Assembly (NCBI GenBank): GCA_001430745.1
Contig: KQ481942.1
Span: forward strand, 333,086-397,085
Length of the DNA: 64,000 nt
Reading direction: 5' to 3'
DNA from: Auxenochlorella pyrenoidosa
Taxonomy: Eukaryota > Chlorophyta > Trebouxiophyceae > Chlorellales > Chlorellaceae
Both the position numbers and the translations under genes were made by a program. This document shows, one piece after another, positions 32,019 through 45,212 of the stretch (position 1 is its first letter; the number at the start of each line of letters is the position of its first letter). The notes under the pieces are model-generated. The model worked only from the letters and a program-made list of their open reading frames with translations. It did no database searches and was not told the DNA's origin.

Positions 32019-35000
32019 ATGCAGGCCCGCTACGTGGTTGTGCTGCTGCTGGCGGCGGCGGCGGTTGCCAGGGCAGCCAACCCGCCGTCGGTCGCAGTCG
32101 CAGTAGCACGCAACCAGAACCTTCAGGAGTTGGAGGCCAAGCTCAAGCTGGTGAGACATGGCCTGCGTTGTGGGTGGTGACTGGCGCCCACTGCTACTGC
32201 CGCTGTGGAGCGTCACTTCAAGGCCACTTGATGCGTGCCAAAGTGCAATGCTCCTGTGGTTCCGTGCGCTGTCGCTTGCGCGCCAGCCAGTCGCGCTCAC
32301 ATGCCAGTACAATACCCAGCCTGCAATTAAGCCACCTCTGGCTGGTCCTTCTTGCCGGCCCCCTTTTGCAGTACACCGACATCCAAGCTGAGCTGGGCCC
32401 CGGCTTTGCTGGCACGTTCTTCGCGCCCTCTGATGCTGTGAGCGCTTCTTGCCAGGCTGCCCAGGGTTGGGCGCTCCCGACCGCTTGGGCCGCATGACTG
32501 CACTGCATGTGGATGAGCAGCACTCGTAGCGCTTGCCACTTTACATGCCCCTGTCCTGATACAGGCAGTGTGTGCCTCTCGGTGCAGGCCATTCGCAACG
32601 CAGAGAAGGCCGGCGTCGTGGTGTCCAGCGACATTCTGAAGTACCACATCGTGCCAGGCCCTCCTGCGCCTGTGACTGCCCTCAACGACGACCAAATCTT
32701 TGTGACCGACCAGGGCGGCACCATTCAGGCAGGCCTAGGGCAGCAGTTGCAGTAGTTGGCGAGCGGCGCAGGATGTCGGGAGGGCAGGCCTGCAGGAGAC
32801 CTGCCGCGCCTTTGTCACCCCTTCTGCCTGTGTCTGCAGTGACCTGCCGTGCTGTGTTCGCCAACCCTTTTGCCTGTGTCTGGAGCATCCCTTCCGCCAC
32901 CATCCCCCCCTGCCTGCAGGCGCAGTACACCGATGGGAAGCTCACCCTGCACGGAACTGGCTCCATCGCCCACATTACTGACGCCGACACGATGATTGGC
33001 ATCGCTGAGTATGCTGGTGAGCGGCCAGCGCAGCACGGGCGCAGCCCCCCAGTCTTGTTGGCGCAGCATGTCCATGGCAGGTGGACAGCGAATCATGCCT
33101 TCCTGCGGGCCCACATCCATGCTGCGCAGCTCGTGCCTCCACTCATCCATCTGTTTGCCTGCCCCCCTCTTCCACCTTGCAGTTGTGCACGTGATCGACA
33201 ACGTGCTGCTGCCCTACATCCCTGCCTCCCCCCTGCTCCCCGTGGGCACCAAGCCTCAGCCCGGCACCGGCTCTGTCGGCGCCGCCAGCCTCGGCGGCAG
33301 CGGCACTGGCTCCACCTCTGGCGGCAGCACCGACCCTGTGACTGGCAACGTGGGCGCCGAGAGCCTGGACACCACCCCTGCTGCCGCCCCCGAGGCAGCC
33401 TCCCCGACGGCTGAGGAGCCGGTCCCCTCTCCCGAGGCCTCCCCTGCTGAGCCCTCCGGGCCTTCCACTGAGGAGAGCCCCCCTGCTGAGGAGAGCCCCG
33501 CTCCAGAGCCTGCTGCAGAGCCCACGCCTAGCGAGGGCCCAGACTATGCCGACCTTGTTGAGGTAAAGGCAGCTGCTGTTTGCGTGTTCTGCTCCTCATG
33601 TGCGGGATGAGCAGGGAGGATGTTGCAAGCCGCCAGTGCACAGTCTCCGCAAGTCTCCCCGCTCTTCTACCAAGCGTCTGTCACAAGCTCCTCGCAGATC
33701 TGCCTGCCAGCAGGGTGGTGTGTTAACTTGGGTGCCACTCGCGCGCCAGCACTGCTGACCCGCGGACATCTTGCCCCTGCTCTCCCGCCTGCTGCCGCAG
33801 TTTGCCAGTGCCAAGAACCTGACCCTTCTGCTCGACGTCATCGGCGTGAGTTGAGCAAACCCAAGTTTCGGCAACAAATGCTTGCGGCTCCCAGTGTATG
33901 CTGGCTGCATGCACCTGTGCTGGCTGCCTCTCCCCTTGGCGACCCATTGCTCAGCTGGTTCCCCCTTCCCTTCCCTTGCCGTATCCCCCAGGCGTCTGGC
34001 CTGGCCGACCAGGTGGCCGAATTCAACGGCACTGTGTTTGCGCCCACCAACGCGGCCTTTGTGGAGCACATCAAGGAAATGGGTGTCGACATCAACAACC
34101 TCAACGACACGACCCGGCAGCTGGTGATCACCGTGCTGGTGAGGCCCAGATTGATCTAATCTCTTTGAATGTCCAACCTAAGGTTTTGCGATCCCGTGAC
34201 CCATTGGACAGCTTGTGGGGCCCACTGCACCTCAGAGACAGGCGTTGGCACGTGTCTGGCGGCGCTCAGTGCCCTGGCCACGGTAGCAGTCTTGGCACGG
34301 AGCACCCCTGCTTGCCGTGCTTTGGCCGCCCGTAACTCTGTCCCACATTCAACCCCCTACTCCACGCGCCCCGCAGTCCTACCACCTGGTTCCTGAGAAG
34401 GTGTACTCGTATGACCTGGAGAACGGCACCGTGCTGACCACCCTCGAGGGCGAGCCCCTCGTGGTCAGTGCAGCCGGCAAGACTACTGTATGCACCCTGG
34501 CTGTCCCTCCATCAGCCTCCGCTTGCATGCACCCCGCACTGCGCTCAATTCCTCAATCCCCACTTTATTGCACCGGCACATGGACAGACTGCCAACCATC
34601 CCACGCTTTCGGTCGNNNNNNNNNNNNNNNNNNNNNNNNNNNNNNNNNNNNNNNNNNNNNNNNNNNNNNNNNNNNNNNNNNNNNNNNNNNNNNNNNNNNN
34701 NNNNNNNNNNNNNNNNNNNNNNNNNNNNNNNNNNNNNNNNNNNNNNNNNNNNNNNNNNNNNNNNNNNNNNNNNNNNNNNNNNNNNNNNNNNNNNNNNNNN
34801 NNNNNNNNNNNNNNNNNNNNNNNNNNNNNNNNNNNNNNNNNNNNNNNNNNNNNNNNNNNNNNNNNNNNNNNNNNNNNNNNNNNNNNNNNNNNNNNNNNNN
34901 NNNNNNNNNNNNNNNNNNNNNNNNNNNNNNNNNNNNNNNNNNNNNNNNNNNNNNNNNNNNNNNNNNNNNNNNNNNNNNNNNNNNNNNNNNNNNNNNNNNN

Positions 35001-35500
35001 NNNNNNNNNNNNNNNNNNNNNNNNNNNNNNNNNNNNNNNNNNNNNNNNNNNNNNNNNNNNNNNNNNNNNNNNNNNNNNNNNNCCCCCCCCACACACACAC
35101 ACACTTACACACCGCAGGTTGTGCTGAAGGATGGCAAGGCCTACATCCAGGACGGCACCGGCGCCGAGGCCGAGATTCTGGAGGCAGACATCACAGCTGG
35201 TGACGCTGGTGCGCACCCACCAGGCAGGGTTAACGTGCATGCCAGGGCAGTTGTCGCCATGCGCTGGCCGTGCGCCGCCATCCACCCGCCTGCTGCCCTG
35301 GCTGGCAAATGCACCTCCTCTCCCCTTCCATGGCCCCTCTGCCTGCAGTGGCCCACATCATTGACAGGGTGCTCATCCCTGAGAGCATCATCCACAGCGC
35401 CGCCCCTGCCCCGGCTCCCGCCCCAGCCAGCTCTGCCGCCACTCTGACCAGCATTGCCGCTGTGGCCGGCTCTCTGCTGGGCGCTGCCCTGCTGCTGTGA
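32019..35500 (+). CDS. Fasciclin (FAS1) protein 1: two FAS1 domains, predicted GPI anchor
   Basis: Ten exons: 32019-32150, 32372-32437, 32588-32728, 32920-33016, 33183-33562, 33801-33845, 33992-34138, 34377-34463, 35118-35208, 35349-35500; 445 residues. FAS1 proteins are extracellular adhesion or matrix proteins. A signal peptide (MQARYVVVLLLAAAAVARA) precedes the first FAS1 domain (FAGTFFAPSDAAIRNAEKAG, ILKYHIVPG, YTDGKLTLHGTG, VVHVIDNVLLP). A Pro/Ser/Glu-rich linker of about 100 residues leads to the second (FNGTVFAPTNAAFVEHIK, YHLVPEKVYS, VVLKDGKAYIQDGTGAEAE, VAHIIDRVLIPES). The C-terminus, Ser-rich then VAGSLLGAALLL at the stop, is a typical GPI signal. The exon 3 donor must be GC (caggcagg), a weak match. 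A 467-base assembly gap lies wholly inside the intron after exon 8. Confidence 0.85.
34616..35082. other. Assembly gap (467 N)
   Basis: A run of N inside a fasciclin gene 1 intron, followed directly by C and CA runs. Simple sequence probably broke the assembly here. Exons on either side join in frame, so no coding sequence need be missing. Confidence 0.98.
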
Positions 35501-36676: not shown

Positions 36677-39361
36677 ATGCAGTTCAAGGGGATTGCGCTG
36701 CTGGTCCTCCTGGGCGTGGCTGGCGCCGCTGCCCAGGGCCCCATTGTCAGCAAGAAGGACCTGGTGTCCGCCATCAAGGACAACGCGCAGCTGTCCCAGC
36801 TGTTCACCTTCGCCTCGCAGGTGCGTGCGGGAGCGGCTGCCGTAGGCCTGGCTGTCGCCGACGGCAGTTCAAACCGCCTCCTCCTCCTCTGTGTTTGCAG
36901 CGCCCAGTGCGTCCCCTGCCGATCCTCTTTTTTCCCTCACTCTGTTCAATTCCCATTTCAATCCTTTGCAGTACCCTGCCATCGTGGACACCCTGACCAA
37001 CCTGCAAACTGGCACCGTGCTGGCCCCCAACGACGCCGCCTTTGGCGCACTGCTGAAGGCTGCCACTGCCGCCAACATTGAGCTCGACCCGGCCACCGTG
37101 GAGACTGTGCTGGTGAGAAAGCGTAATTGTTGTGTGCTGGGGAGCTGAAAATTGGCAGTGTTAAGCCTTTGCATGCTCATTTGGTAATGGCACGCATCAG
37201 AGAATTTCCAGTTTGCAAGGCCGAGTCGTCCATTCAGCAGGCACGGATCCACCCTGGCTGCCAAAATGCGCCCTAAAGCCAGGCTGGCAGCACCTGCAGC
37301 AGCGCGCTGAGCGAGCTGCCCCACCTATCTGCTATCCCCCCTGCAGAAGTACCACGTCATCACCGAGGGCTCCTACCTGAAGGCCGACCTGTCCGATGGC
37401 CAGGAGCTGCAGACCGCCGCTGGCGTGCCCGTGACCGTGAGTTCTGCGTGCCTGGCATCAGGCCGCATGGCAGGTGGCGTGCTGTGATTTGCCAACAAGC
37501 TGAATGTCATAGAAAGCCTTGCCAATCAGTCCCTGCTGAAGTGCTTGCAAAGCATGCAACTGCCTGGTATGACCAAACCATGTCCTGTGGCCTTGCCTCC
37601 TTTTTGCAGGCCACCTACACTGACGGCAAGCTCGGCTGGAAGGGCGTGGGCAGCTCCGCCATGGATGTCAAGGAGATGAAGGTCGGCGACGTTGGTAAGC
37701 CAACTCAACCAGGGCAGAGCGCCTGCTATGTCGAGATAAACCTGACGTTCTGCAAGCTGCAAAGCACTTGGGTGCTTTTTACTCCGTCCCGTTGCACTGC
37801 TGCGCTGTGCCAAGCCGATGAGTTTTGTCGCCCTGGCTCACCTCCAGTCCCCCCTGCCTCCCCTCGCCTGCCCGTGCAGCCGTGCACATCATCGACGCTG
37901 TGCTGCTGCCCGTGGAGCTGTCTGGCTCTGCCCCCGCTCCTGCCGAGGGTGGCCCTGCCCCCGCCCCTGAGGAGGCCACCACCTACCCCGACCTGGTCGA
38001 TTTTGCCACCTCCAACAACCTGACTGAGCTGATCATGGCTGTCCAGGCGAGGAAGGGCCTGCAAGTGGGGCCCTGCATGCTTTTGTGTGCTGCCGTGCTT
38101 GTCTTACGGCCTCTACCTGGCTGTACTGCTCACTGCCCATGCACATCCCGGCTCCCCGCCATGAAAGTGACGGCCCACCCTCACCCGCACTGCCCTCTTC
38201 CCTTTTTTGCAGGCTGCCGACCTGCTTGACGAGGTTGTGGGCTTCAATGGCACCGTGTTCGCCCCCACTAATGCGGCCTTTGAGGCTGCCCTGGCTCTCC
38301 TGGGCGTCGGTGCTGCACCCGAGCTGACTGACGCCCTGAAGGCTGCCATCGGCGCTGTGCTGGTGGGCCATTCTCCTGCTTTGACTCGCCTTGCTGGTGA
38401 ACCCTAATGCTGGTGAAGTGCGCAGTCAAAGGGGAGATCACTGGCCTTTGGCTCTGCCCTTGTTTGTGCCCTAACGCGCGATTGTTTTCATCCCCACCCC
38501 AAATGCTCTCTTTCCACCCCGCAGAAGTACCACCTGGTTGCTGAGAACGTGCCCGCCCTGGTGGACGGTGCAATGCTGGAGACTGTGGAGGGCGAGCCCC
38601 TGGAGGCAAGGAGGGGGGGCAGCAGTCTGGCAGATTGGATTTTTTCAAAAAAAACAACATACGCAGCTGGCTATTTCTTGGAGCCTTGCCCTTTTCTGAG
38701 CTCAAAATGTCGTGCTCTGCTTGGTAGCAGCCCCCTCTTAATGCCAGGTCGCGCTGACAAGCCGATGTGGCTCGCTCACGTGGCCCAATGTGCAGGTTGT
38801 GGTGAAGGGCGGCAAGGCATACATCAAGGACAGCACTGGCGCTGAGGCCGAGGTTCTGCTGGCTGCCACTGCTGGTGACGCTTGTGAGTCCAAAGGCTGC
38901 AAAGTTCTTTCAGATGGTTGTTTGTGCAAGTCTCCTCCACAAATCCTTGGAGCCGACAGGTTGCTGTCCATTCCAGGCCTGGCTGAGCTCGAACCAGCAA
39001 CTTCACTCCTTAGCTCAAGCAACACGCAGGCTGCTGAACACGTGTACACCCCAATGACCAGGGCGTCTTTCTTCCCCTCTGCTCCCTTGCAGCTGCCTTC
39101 ATCATCAACAAGGTGCTGCTGCCTGAGGCCCTGGGCTCCCTGCTTGGCGGTGCCCCCGCCCCGGCCCCACCCCCGCCAGCTCGGCATCCACCCTGGCCAG
39201 CGCTGCCGCTGTGGCTGGCTCTCTGGCAGCCGCTGCCCTGCTGCTGTGAATGGACGGCATGCAGCCCCTTGAGCCTCTGTCTCGTTTGCTGTAGCTGCAT
39301 TCGTTTGAGCGCCACGCTGCCCCTTGGCAGCCTGTTGTTGAAACCCAGCTTGCGTTGTTGA
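36677..39361 (+). CDS. Fasciclin (FAS1) protein 2, two FAS1 domains; frameshifted C-terminus
   Basis: Nine exons: 36677-36820, 36972-37112, 37347-37436, 37610-37694, 37880-38046, 38213-38362, 38525-38605, 38796-38883, 39093-39361; 404 residues as the sequence stands. The signal peptide is MQFKGIALLVLLGVAGAAAQ. FAS1 domain 1: AIKDNAQLSQLFTFASQ, TVLAPNDAAFGALLKAA, KYHVITEGSYLKADL, YTDGKLGWKGVGSSAMDV, VHIIDAVLLPVEL. FAS1 domain 2: LVDFATSNNLTELIMAVQ, FNGTVFAPTNAAFEAALALL, KYHLVAENVPALV, VVVKGGKAYIKDSTGAEAE. Donors of exons 5 (gcgagg) and 7 (gcaagg) are GC; for exon 5 a GT donor 18 nt on is an alternative. In the last exon the GPI-type tail (SSASTLASAAAVAGSLAAA...) is readable only in another frame ending at 39249, because the C-rich tract near 39160-39178 lacks one base. 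In the written frame translation runs to 39361. Confidence 0.8.
36770..37920 (+). repeat. Inverted segmental duplication, arm 1 (donor FAS1 domain)
   Basis: Pairs with 42820-43922 on the minus strand. Exons 1 (from gccatcaagg) to 5 (to cgtggagctg) and all four introns between them are closely similar, including unselected intron text such as ggcagttcaaaccgcct and cattcagcaggcacggatcc. Confidence 0.9.
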
Positions 39362-39430
39362 AACAAACACTGCAACCTGACTGCCCTCACATGAGTTGTA
39401 GCACTGACCCTCTCTACTCGCCTAGCAGTG

Positions 39431-39621: not shown

Positions 39622-42600
39622 TTAAAGGGGATCTGCCAGCAGCGCCCTCAGCTGGGTGGTGATGGCACCAAACGTTGGGCGGGCCTCTGGCTCCGTGGCC
39701 CAGCATGCCCTGCAACAGGCAGTGTGGGCACATTTTGTTACACTGTTTGTGTGGTTTATGCGAGAATCCAAGGCCATCATGCCAGTAATTTTGCATGGTG
39801 CCAACCTCACCGCATGAGGTTTGAATACGCCTCCAGAGAGGCCGGCGGAGGTGCCTCGATACCCGGAAGTTGCTCGCGCGGCGGCACTGAGGGACGTGCA
39901 CCAGCCACGACCATGCCCACGATCTGGACAGAGAGACCACGACAAGCAGCTTGATATAAAATACTCTGCCCAGGCATGGCAAGGGCAGCAGAAGCCATGG
40001 CATGCAGCTGAATTGAACAGTTCACAATGACCTGCCTAAACGGTGCAGCAATCCCTCAAAGCACCTGCCACGGATTCTCTGTCTCAGCGCCAGTCCAAGG
40101 AAGCTCCCATGTGAGAATCTCCCATAAAACCTGCGACAGCGCAGAGCAAGGACATCAGTGGCACACCGGCACCAGCAACCGGGCCTGGTGCGCCCAAGTG
40201 CAAGCAATCGGCCTGCCGCCAGCATGTACGCACCAGGCCAAAAGCAAAGACGTCTGAAGCCAGCGTGGCACGTGCGCCATGCAACACCTCTGGTGCAAGC
40301 CAGCGCTGCACAGAGGGGGGATCAGGCTCATTGTGAGCGACAACACCAGCATCAAACGGCAGGATTCAATGTGCGTGGGCATGGCTGAGGTAAAGGGCTC
40401 TGCAGCTTACGCTAGCGCAAGGGCCCTCACCGGATTCATAACGGCAGCAGAGCTGGTACGGCTGCCCTCTTGGACTAGTCTACTGAGGTTGAAGTCAGCA
40501 ACCTGCAAGGAAGGAGTAGAGGGCAGCAGAACATACTGCAGTATGAAACCTGTACACGCGTTTGCCGCAAGCCTACCAGCCTGCCCCCTGACAGCTCAAC
40601 ATTGCATACCAAACATACCTTGACGCGCATGTGCTCATCGACGAGCAGGTTGGGTGACTTGAGGTCGCGGTGGCAAATAGGCACAGGCCGGGAGTGCAGG
40701 TAGCTACAAGCAGGACACACATGTGAGCATGAGTAAGCACAAGGACAAGGTGGCAGTGCAACCTTGCACCTGCGTGCTCGCAGCAGTTCCAATGCATCAT
40801 GCGCTTACAGCATGCCAAGGGCCCCATCCAGCGCCATCGAAAGCCGGCAGCGCCATGTCAGCTCTGCCGCCATGGTGGCATCCTGTCGGCCGGCAGCCAG
40901 CACATCTGCCAGGCTGCCACGGGCGCAGTACTCTGCAGGTGATCACCAAGCAGGTAATTTGGAAGGCTTATGGTGGGCAGGGCGATTAAATAGCGCACTC
41001 GAGGATGAGGAGACTTGCATTTGCAAGCGGCAGCAGAAGGTGAGTCCAGAATCTTTTCAAGTAGTGGGCTGGCATCAGCGTGTACCAGGCACAAACGCAG
41101 CTGCCATGCGGCGCTACAATCCAGGGCAACAGGGGGTCATACCTGAAATCATGCAGGGGGGCAGGAAGCAGACGCCCAGGAAGCCCACAATGTTGGGATG
41201 GCGGAGGGAGGCCATCAAGGATGCTTCCTGCAGAAACAGAGGAGTCGGGCGGCCATTTTAAAGAGAGCAGACTCAGAGTGAAGTTGAACAGTACCACGGC
41301 ATGAGGCTCACCAAGCGAAATTAGGCAGCAGGCGGTTGCATACAGAAGCCAGCAGACATCAGGCGAAAGGCACTCAGACAGCAGCGGCGGGTGGACGGGA
41401 GGCAAAATGCATCTGAGGACATGCCTCATCAAGCTTGGAAGCCAGGGATGGGGGTAGGATGAGGGAGGATGCCAGGGAGCCGTCCTTAGTGTCTGACCGC
41501 CCCAGCAGCGCTTCACGGTCTATGAGGACCTTGGCAGCAACCTGGATCTGATGCCACGATGCCAGAAAGACGGTGCCAAAACTGCCACAGCCGACCGGCT
41601 TGATGATGGTGAGCTCTGCAATGGAGGATGCAGGGGTGTATTGAGATGGGGCAAAGAAAGGGTGATCCACTGTGCAGAATATCCCGATTTAAACTCCCGA
41701 TGGGTGCAACAGCAAGAGCGCATGCTACGCTCTTCCTGCACCCTTGCCTGCAAAGTCAAACTGCCAAGGCCGAGGGTCCACACCACTAGATGGGGTGCGC
41801 TGAGAGCTGGCGAGCATCCCGCTGTCGCCACTGCCACCCGAATTGGCCAGCTTGGATGCCTCAGGCAACTGCAGGGATGGCAGGATGTGCGGCAGGGCAC
41901 AGGCAAACACTCGCAGCATGGCTTACTGAACAGCAATCACGGGAACCATGCAGAAATGTGTGCTTTAAGGCGTGCCTGAGACTGGATGAGCGCCAGCAGG
42001 ATGTCATCGCTACCATTGCTGTGCTGCAAGCTGCAGCCAGGACAGGGGCAGCGGAGCATATTATTGAATGGCATGCACAGACGCTCATGCACATCACAAC
42101 AGAAGGACCAGGTGCAGCTATGACTCCTAACCTGGCCGGTTGGCGAATGGTTGTCTCAACAGAAGTTGTACCAGGCACAGACTGGGTGGCAGCTGAAATG
42201 CTGCCGATGCCAGTGAGCCCTGCGCTTTGTGAAGTCATGGCATCCGCAGTTGGCTGCCAGTTGGTGTCTCCAGCGTAGGTGGGAGGCTCGGTAGATACGA
42301 CAAAGTCATCACCAGCAGGTGAAGCAGGCTTGTCTGTCAGGATTTCGTCATGGACATGCTGACGGTGCAGCTTGCGACGGCGCAACATCCAGAACGCGGC
42401 GCCCGCAACAACTGCATGGAGTCGAAAGGCAAAGTGCAAGCACCTCATGATTATTGGCAAGTGCAGGCTGACTGCCCAGCACGCCTCGAAAGCACAACCT
42501 TGCAACAGCTGCCTGCTGGTCAGCGAGAGCCTGAGACATCACCTGCAACGGCCACAAGGCCTCCAACTGCAGCGCCAATAATGGTGCCTGTGCCCCCGCT

Positions 42601-44003
42601 GCTGCTGCCCTCGCTGCTGCCGCCGCTGCTGCTGCCGCTGCTGCTGCTGCCACTGTTGCTGCCGCTGCCGTCGCCACTGCTGTTGCTGCTGCCGCCGGCA
42701 GGTCCCGGTACGAGTGCCACCGGTGGCGGAGGAGCATTGGGAGGGGGGCTGGCACGCAGTACGGGTGCCACCGGTGGCGAAGGAGCATTGGGAGGGGGGC
42801 TGGCACGCGCGGGGCCAAGCAGCTCAACGGGCAGCAGCACGCCGTCGATGATGTGCACGGCTGCACAGCAGGGGAGGGTAGGAAGGGGGACTGGAGGTGA
42901 CCCAGGGCGACAGGGTGTGGGCTTGGCACAGCGCAGCAGCTGCACTTCAAAGGGATGGAGTAAAACGCACCCAAGTGCCTTGCAGCTTGCAGAGCGTCAG
43001 GTTTATGTCGACATGGCAGGCGCTCTGCCCAGGTTGAGTTGGCTTACCGACGTCGCCGACCTTCATCTCCCTGACATCCATGGCGGAGCTGCCCACGCCC
43101 TTCCAGCCGAGCTTGCCGTCAGTGAACGTGGCCTGCAGAAAAGAGACGAGGCCGCAAGGCACGTTCGGCCAAACCAGGCAGAGTCTGTTGTGAGCTTTGC
43201 ATGCACTTCAGCACTGGCTGGCAAGGTTTCTGACAATGCCATTCATTTCATTGGCAACTCACCGCAATGCACTCAAGGCCCTGCACCCTGCTGCCAGGAT
43301 ACAGCACTCACGGTCACGGGCACGTCAGCGGCGGTCTGCAGCTCCTGGCCGTCGGACAGGTCGGCCTTCAGGTAGGAGCCCTCGGTGATGACGTGGTACT
43401 TCTGCAGGGGGGACAGCAGTGAGGCGGGGCAGCGCTCAGCGCGCTGCTGCAGGTGCTGCCAGCCTGGCTTTACGGCGCATTTTGGCAGCCGGGTGGATCC
43501 GTGCCTGCTGAATGGACGAGTCGGCCTTGCAAGCTGGAAATTCTCTGGTGCGTGCCGTATCAAATGAGCATGCACAGCACGACGCACGAGTTTTCAGCTT
43601 ACCAGCACAGTCTCCACAGTGGCCGGGTCGAGCTCAATGTTGGCGGCAGTGGCAGCCTTCAGCAGTGCGCCAAAGGCGGCATCGTTGGGGGCCAGCACGG
43701 TGCCGGTTTGCAGGTTGGTCAGGGTGTCCACGATGCGAGGGTACTGCAAAGGAATGAATGGGAATTGGCCAGGGTGATGGAAAAAAGAGGATCGGCAGGG
43801 GGTGCATTAGGCGGTTTGAACTGCCGCAGGCGACAGCCAGGCCGGCCTACTGCAGCCTCTCCCGCACCCACCTGCGAGGCAAAGCTGAACAGCTGGGACA
43901 GCTGCGCGTTGTCCTTGATGGCGGTCACGACATCCGCGCGAGCCACATGTGCTCTATCCACGAGGGTGAGCAGCAGCAGCAGCGCACAGCTTGCTGCTCG
44001 CAT
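39622..44003 (-). CDS. Fasciclin receptor-like kinase: FAS1 ectodomain, TM helix, protein kinase
   Basis: Sixteen exons: 44003-43872, 43743-43603, 43401-43312, 43132-43048, 42860-42543, 42411-42098, 41868-41748, 41615-41425, 41227-41143, 40932-40809, 40703-40619, 40502-40431, 40305-40234, 40130-40065, 39923-39811, 39709-39622; 698 residues. A signal peptide (MRAASCALLLLLTLV) leads one FAS1 domain (to about residue 160), then a stalk with two SPPPNAP units and a Ser/Gly run, a TM helix (GTIIGAAVGGLVAVAVVAGA then FWMLRRRK) at about 240-264, and a TKL-like kinase. Kinase motifs: GCGSFG 409-414, VAAK with Lys429, EASLMASLRHPNIV (Glu465), HRDLKSPN (Asp547), VADFNLSR (Asp565, DFN in place of DFG), RWLAPE, SDVFAFG, and CWATEPEARPTF near the end. 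Adhesion input and intracellular phosphorylation are thus joined in one protein. Introns after exons 7 and 8 have GC donors. The exon 6/7 junction is the weakest. Confidence 0.85.
42710..42811 (-). repeat. Two 51-bp tandem repeats in the kinase stalk
   Basis: Copies at 42710-42760 and 42761-42811 differ at few positions. They encode the Pro-rich units RASPPPNAP(S/P)PPVA(P/L)V, likely sites of hydroxyproline glycosylation (inference). Confidence 0.9.
42820..43922 (-). repeat. Inverted segmental duplication, arm 2 (ectodomain of the receptor kinase)
   Basis: Minus-strand copy of 36770-37920. Homology begins inside exon 1, after the signal peptide, and ends in exon 5 just before the stalk. The first intron lacks about 25 nt relative to arm 1. 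Confidence 0.9.
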
Positions 44004-45212
44004 CTGCACGCAAGCAAATGGGCAGAGTTGTCTCAGTTTAGTTTGAGTCGAAACAAGTATGTAATCAGCATGCCCAAAGAAGTAATTAGCAGGCGAGACT
44101 GCATTCAGTGCTCATGAAGAACTGCCGGGCAGTGCTGCCCAGCGCCGGGCCTGCGGGCGAGCGCTCAGTGGCAAGAGCGCCGGCTGCGAGACAGGGGCAA
44201 ACCCACATCCTATGGCTTTGGTTCGTTCTTTAGGTCTTGACGAGCACCGGGAAGGTGCTTGGTTGCTCTGGCTTCGCTGAAAGCGCAAAAAGTAGTGCGG
44301 TCTCGGAACGCCCTGCGGCTTTGTTTTTCAGCTAAAATGATTTGTTGAATGGCAGAACAAGGGGAACCTGGGCTCCGCGGCACGCGCAGAGGTGTATGAC
44401 CGCTGGTGGCAAGCTGGCAGCGTGCGGCGTATGCATGCACCTGAAGCCCACCACACAAACACATGTGCTTGTGGCAGCTTGAGGTCGGCTCAAGCGCTAA
44501 CAGTGTCCATGGTAGGAAATTCAAGAGGAGAGGAAACCTTTCCCTGTACTGAATCTTCTTGACCGCCATGCACTGGCGCTGCTTTGCCCTTGCCACGTGC
44601 ATGAGAGGCTGCCGCCGCTGCCTCGTGGCGGCACTGCTGCTGCATCTGCATCTGCACCACCTTGCTGCCCGCTCTGTGCGGGAAGCGTGTTGCACACACA
44701 ACTCGCGTTGTTGAACAAACACTGCAACCTGACAGCCTTTGCGAGGGTGAGGACAAGTATTTTTAGCGTGGACCGTCTTCCTTCCCTCTTTTTAGTTCCG
44801 TGGTAGTGTGAAAAATTGTTTCATCTCTTCAAGATCTGCAAGTCAGGGGGCAGAAGTATGTTGTGAGCATGTCTTCTACAGAACGTCATCGGACAGGTTG
44901 TGCTCTTTCGCACCAGTTGCAACGCAAAATGTGATCACTCTGCAAATCTGTTTGTTTGCTGCCATCAAAGGCATCTGAATGTTGGCTGCTTGTATGATCC
45001 GCAGAAGAAGTGGGATTGCAACTTGCCGCATAAGTGGAATCTCTCCGCTGCACGGGTCGATGCGGCGCAGCGTGGCGGTGCCCTGAATGCGGAAGACGGC
45101 ATGGGCTCCGCAGTCATCCTATTTCCCTTCGATCCTCGTTGCGCTCGCTGTCAGAACCTGCAAGCACGCATCGAGGTCTTCTCGTTCAGCGGTCAGAGAA
45201 CGCGTCTCGAGA
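44004..45212. other. Divergent intergenic region, receptor kinase and membrane protein gene
   Basis: Promoters and 5' UTRs of two divergent genes. No exon is supported. At 44705-44733 it has a near copy of 39352-39381 (gcgttgttgaacaaacactg, then caacctgac), the end of fasciclin gene 2, in the same orientation. Confidence 0.45.

Follow-up and report, generated by a model that had tools for sequence, protein, structure and literature searches.

Fasciclin-like arabinogalactan proteins (FLAs) are GPI-anchored or secreted, and to our knowledge they carry no kinase. In Arabidopsis, FLA4 and the receptor kinases FEI1/FEI2 are placed in one linear genetic pathway by the available text of PMC6032426. 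The FEI kinases are LRR receptors, and the FAS1 domain and the kinase are found there on separate proteins. Among algal FAS1 proteins, the available part of PMC10147662 names two-FAS1 adhesion proteins of Volvox, and it mentions no kinase for these or for AstaP. Kinase-like AGPs (KLAs) of land plants are described as having extracellular AG motifs, a transmembrane (TM) helix and a kinase, and the available portion of that account mentions no FAS1 domain for them (PMC8471777). FAS1-AGPs and kinase-AGPs form separate subclasses in land plants, as far as the accessible sections of two sources describe them (PMC8471777, PMC9223364).

The gene described here, K, combines parts of these systems. Like FLAs, it has a surface-type FAS1 domain and a Pro-rich stretch, recognized as a stalk by inspection, but it continues into a TM helix, the residues RRRK and a kinase instead of a GPI anchor or secretion. 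It shares FAS1 with the algal proteins, and TM helix and kinase with the KLAs. Unlike in the FLA4-FEI pathway, FAS1 and kinase are predicted in one chain. We consider it likely, for the explanation as a whole including its inferred signalling and gene conversion, that K encodes a single-pass TM-TKL receptor kinase with a FAS1-on-stalk ectodomain.

Gene K occupies positions 39622-44003, minus strand, of the 64-kb window, that is, the whole stretch of DNA analysed. It runs from an ATG at 44003 to a TAA ending at 39622 and encodes 705 amino acids; both ends are exactly those given in a preliminary description of this DNA. That description counted 16 exons, whereas our splice model has 17, with 16 introns, and the frame closes across all of them as had been claimed. 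Exons 1-9 lie at 44003-43872, 43743-43603, 43401-43312, 43132-43048, 42860-42543, 42411-42132, 42030-41976, 41868-41748 and 41615-41425, and exons 10-17 at 41227-41143, 40932-40809, 40703-40619, 40502-40431, 40305-40234, 40130-40065, 39923-39811 and 39709-39622 (all minus strand). All 16 acceptors are AG. Thirteen donors are GT and three, after exons 7, 8 and 9 (41976, 41748 and 41425, minus strand), are GC.

The other parts that had been proposed from the translation are borne out, all on the minus strand. Residues 1-23 (43935-44003) look like a signal peptide on inspection, with MRAAS followed by CALLLLLTLV and a c-region ending in ARA. The proposed signal peptide is plausible to that extent, but it scores under the hydropathy cut-off of 1.6 that we used for hydrophobic stretches. 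The FAS1 domain (residues 34-160, PF02469, E 3.2e-15) is spread over exons 1-5 with their introns (42829-43904), and among solved structures AstaPo1 8C18 comes closest to it in sequence (E 3.7e-11). The Pro/Ser/Gly-rich stalk, also identified by inspection, lies wholly in exon 5 (42583-42828). It is followed by a TM helix (residues 243-261, 42395-42582, hydropathy 2.36) that is split by intron 5, and then by RRRK. In exon 5 (42860-42543) the last part of FAS1, the stalk and the larger part of the helix share one frame, and the remainder of the helix is in exon 6. A second, weak hydrophobic stretch (residues 146-164, 1.63) lies within or at the end of the FAS1 domain. Exon 7 contains the juxtamembrane motif DDILLAL (41988-42008).

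The CTR1/Raf-like kinase domain (residues 410-697, PF07714, E 5.8e-48) is encoded by exons 9-17 (39649-41610). By inspection, its catalytic residues are intact, as had been claimed, with the VAAK Lys, HRDLKSPN, RWLAPE and EARP present; the glycine of DFG is replaced by Asn (VADFNLS). The best match among solved structures is CTR1 (3ppz, E 5.8e-50), and no RLK/Pelle chain is named among the best 60 of 2381 such matches. For the predicted protein, this establishes the domain order, the closed splice model, the intact catalytic residues and the family-type TM, juxtamembrane and kinase parts.

The kinase half has many relatives. Among the best 120 of 335 matches there were 119 kinase relatives (P0121-P0239, with P0001 kept apart), 111 with a scorable catalytic loop and 65 with a clear TM helix before the kinase by a hydropathy rule. 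DFN replaces DFG in 106 of the 111. K has the features of the TM-TKL (CTR1-like) family, namely a kinase near CTR1/Raf with DFNLS, preceded by a single TM helix and a juxtamembrane motif, the motif pattern having been defined post hoc. Some of these kinases are annotated as 'CTR1', for example Chlorella vulgaris D9Q98_010312 (P0123) and Micractinium tetrahymenae ABPG75_011445 (P0125). Both resemble K in that their kinase, 58% and 53% identical to that of K, reads DFNLS and follows a TM helix, and the TM-TKL kinases share with K a juxtamembrane motif, D-P-L/I. Unlike K, P0123 and P0125 have ectodomains without a Pfam domain, their relative P0129 has PAN domains, and LRR and other domains, but apart from P0001 no FAS1, occur among the other listed kinases. 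Since close kinases without FAS1 carry other ectodomains, the kinase half of K is of a usual kind in these algae and it is the ectodomain that differs. K is thus less isolated than the preliminary description had it, since green algae have many kinases like its own, and many of these follow a TM helix and a different ectodomain. We rate the FAS1 sensor as new, and the green-algal receptor kinase that carries it as known. Some 130 kb from K, its contig (241195-247049) holds further kinase fragments of this family.

A domain-architecture search for FAS1 plus kinase, as earlier proposed, yielded one protein among the matches listed, and it lacks a TM helix. With the FAS1 query, a kinase domain was found in one of the best 120 of 231 proteins, and with the kinase query, Fasciclin was found in one of the best 120 of 335. 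Both were P0001 (Micractinium sp. CCAP 211/92 ABPG77_010453), which matched at 71% over the first 170 residues and at 91% over the covered part, respectively. When the two FAS1 domains of P0001 served as query, the best 120 of 154 proteins contained no fusion besides P0001 itself. These searches rely on shared short words, and distant or independent fusions could escape them. Kinases of five species, M. tetrahymenae, M. conductrix, C. vulgaris, C. sorokiniana and C. ohadii, were among the listed matches but no fusion from any of them, which counts against our reading of K. In the literature searched, largely outside subscription journals, we found no description of a FAS1-kinase fusion. The earlier remark that no FAS1 receptor kinase had been described therefore holds for that literature, but the Micractinium prediction already joins both domains.

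Like K, P0001 combines FAS1 with the same kinase (91% identical) and a similar signal peptide, and it looks orthologous to K by sequence. Unlike K, it is predicted with two FAS1 domains and without a stalk, TM helix or juxtamembrane part, passing directly from a seemingly incomplete second FAS1 domain into the kinase. Because that second domain lacks its last segment on inspection, we suspect, without proof, that the P0001 model is mis-spliced and probably skipped the exons for the last FAS1 part, stalk, TM helix and juxtamembrane region. As it stands, P0001 fails to repeat the whole layout of K, and this counts against our reading. A predicted structure of P0001, built on a 6-row alignment with no other kinase in it, was too weak to serve as evidence (mean pLDDT 47.9). 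Its first FAS1 domain was fair (block means 62-90) and its kinase was not folded (means about 20-40), with the final strand of its second FAS1 domain (307-314) overlapping the start of the kinase.

Judged by its protein relatives, the source of this DNA is probably a green alga close to Micractinium and Chlorella. The genome itself (51.6 Mb) was searched with the K protein, which gave at least 70 listed matches, with 63 of 165 candidates scored. Fifteen stretches of 9.9 kb were examined, covering four FAS1 loci and 11 kinase loci. At E 0.01, tblastn detected no kinase in the four FAS1 loci. For FAS1 itself this method was not sensitive enough, as the K FAS1 query matched none of these four loci. 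A profile from 195 FAS1 domains matched all four as well as the three FAS1 genes of the window, and none of the 11 kinase loci. No second fusion was therefore found among the 11 paralogous kinase loci and the four other FAS1 loci. The TM/juxtamembrane query of K had no match at E 0.01 in the 15 stretches, which also counts against our reading.

The three FAS1 genes of the window, K, B and A, form a cluster. Gene B (36677-39249, plus strand) is the convergent neighbour of K, with nine exons in our model, a Pro/Ala tail and two FAS1 domains, as called by a domain search of 341 residues ending before the tail. In the frame given by its exons there is no stop by 39249, and a GPI-like tail with its stop sits in another frame. 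Relative to P0240 of M. tetrahymenae and to gene A, this tail loses its frame close to a run of C at about 39170, and the shift may be genuine or an error of the assembly. Gene A (32019-35500, plus strand, start approximate) has a GPI-like tail and contains an N gap of 467 bases (34616-35082). Introns of the GC-AG type are common in the models of both K (3/16) and B (2/8, with donors at 38046 and 38605, plus strand).

K and B share an inverted duplication. One arm covers the FAS1 exons of K with their introns (42814-43928, minus strand), and the other the first FAS1 domain of B (36764-37926, plus strand), with 83% identity over 1186 columns. Exons 2-4 are 96.5, 97.8 and 95.3% identical between the arms, exon 1 is 72% identical, and the introns range from 77 to 90%. 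Outside, identity falls to 47% upstream of the start and to 53% in exon 5, where it drops just past FAS1. These values indicate that the shared block sets in only past the signal peptide and stops where the domain stops. At the protein level, the FAS1 domains of K and B are identical at 135 of 146 positions and those of K and P0001 at 108 of 147, though the kinases of the latter two are 91% identical. Between K and B, dN was 0.027 (NG86) or 0.026 (YN00) and dS 0.088 or 0.166.

Judged from their sequences, the signal peptides of K and B are distinct. In pairwise alignments, K matches P0001 at 16 of 23 residues and B matches P0240 at 26 of 27, whereas K and B share only 9 of 24. Two results count against this argument: in a four-way alignment K and P0001 share only 10 of 24 residues, and the match between K and B also beats all 2000 shuffles, though at a far lower score (23 vs 58). 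The domain-bounded inverted copy suggests gene conversion between the putative receptor K and the surface protein B. Considering that P0001 likewise joins FAS1 to a kinase and has a signal peptide resembling that of K, the fusion probably predates the split from Micractinium. The simplest reading would be that the fusion is older than this split and that K and B came to resemble each other through later gene conversion; the alternative is a newer duplication together with a FAS1 domain that evolves fast.

The near copy of B in the FAS1 exons and introns of K could also mean that the FAS1 part was recently transferred by chance from B onto an older receptor kinase, as a passing product of recombination with no selected function. 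We consider this unlikely, since it leaves P0001 with its similar signal peptide to be explained and since dN/dS between K and B is below neutral, although gene conversion blurs that ratio.

A second concern is that our model merges two genes, of which one would encode a FAS1 surface protein and end within or close to exon 5, and the other would encode the kinase and begin in exons 6-8. Intron 5 interrupts the TM helix, and read-through into this intron meets a stop after GDVSGSR, seven codons on (ORF 42520-42996). An open exon 5 is in itself weak evidence for a single gene, as this exon has 70% GC and a second frame is also open there. The TM helix, though, requires exons 5 and 6 in phase, and a kinase without the FAS1 exons would have no signal peptide and only part of the helix. 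P0001 also joins FAS1 to the kinase. Exon 7 bears the juxtamembrane motif of the family, and since this motif recurs in many of the relatives, the TM helix and kinase of K belong together. The pattern D-P-L-L-x-W/Y-I/V, written only once examples had been seen, occurs in 32 of the 65 TM-bearing relatives against 1.3 expected by shuffling. The spacing between TM helix and kinase is 150 in K and has a median of 142 in the relatives. Local alignment of the exon 7 peptide, run before the pattern test, gave 10 of 65 relatives at a shuffle p <=0.05 with about 3 expected, a weak result that counts against the receptor reading.

The splice sites weigh on both sides. Three GC donors among 16 are counted against the model of K. 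Counted for it are the need for GC donors in 2 of the 8 introns of gene B and the junction SKLDE-EASL, which is produced by the GC donor after exon 9 and is identical in P0001. Two full domain matches in a single phase-closed chain are far beyond chance. Considering the closed model, the juxtamembrane motif, the family layout and the FAS1-kinase prediction in Micractinium, a single gene with a predicted FAS1 ectodomain, TM helix and kinase is well supported, and a merger of two genes appears very unlikely.

As a receptor kinase, K would expose its FAS1 domain outside the membrane, where it may bind the wall, the matrix or a neighbouring FAS1 glycoprotein, possibly the GPI-type protein of gene B. 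Binding or clustering at the FAS1 end could bring kinase domains together and lead to autophosphorylation. The signal might then be passed on, perhaps to a MAPK-like cascade, and would report wall state or contact. Gene conversion across the inverted pair may hold the FAS1 module nearly identical to that of B. In a bolder version, which we put forward as rather doubtful, K and B would be a matched pair: B would set a GPI-linked FAS1 domain on the surface or wall, K would read B homophilically and conversion would keep both matched. Such a pair would offer a self, wall or contact signal that stays specific while diverging between species.

The FAS1 domain of K might instead bind a carotenoid or another small hydrophobic molecule, so that K would sense pigment or oxidative stress and not serve adhesion; this is possible but not favoured and seems highly improbable. 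The contact residues are not specially kept: 6 of 16 are identical in K, whereas 230 other FAS1 matches average 4.0 and 28 of them reach at least 6. A cyanobacterial homologue, moreover, binds no carotenoid according to the available text of PMC10147662. In favour of such a sensor are that, among solved FAS1 domains, the astaxanthin-binding AstaPo1 (8C18, E 3.7e-11) is closest in sequence, and that K has Gln and Leu where Q56 and L57 stand, a combination found in 5 of the 230 other matches, many of which are gapped there.

With FAS1 and kinase in one chain, K would be a direct system for asking what FAS1 binds and whether binding controls the kinase. It would also be a receptor whose sensor module is shared with an adjoining gene. 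No RNA family reached its gathering score within the 64-kb window. A direct repeat of 51 columns (86% identical) lies on both sides of K, at 44688-44737 and 39336-39385.
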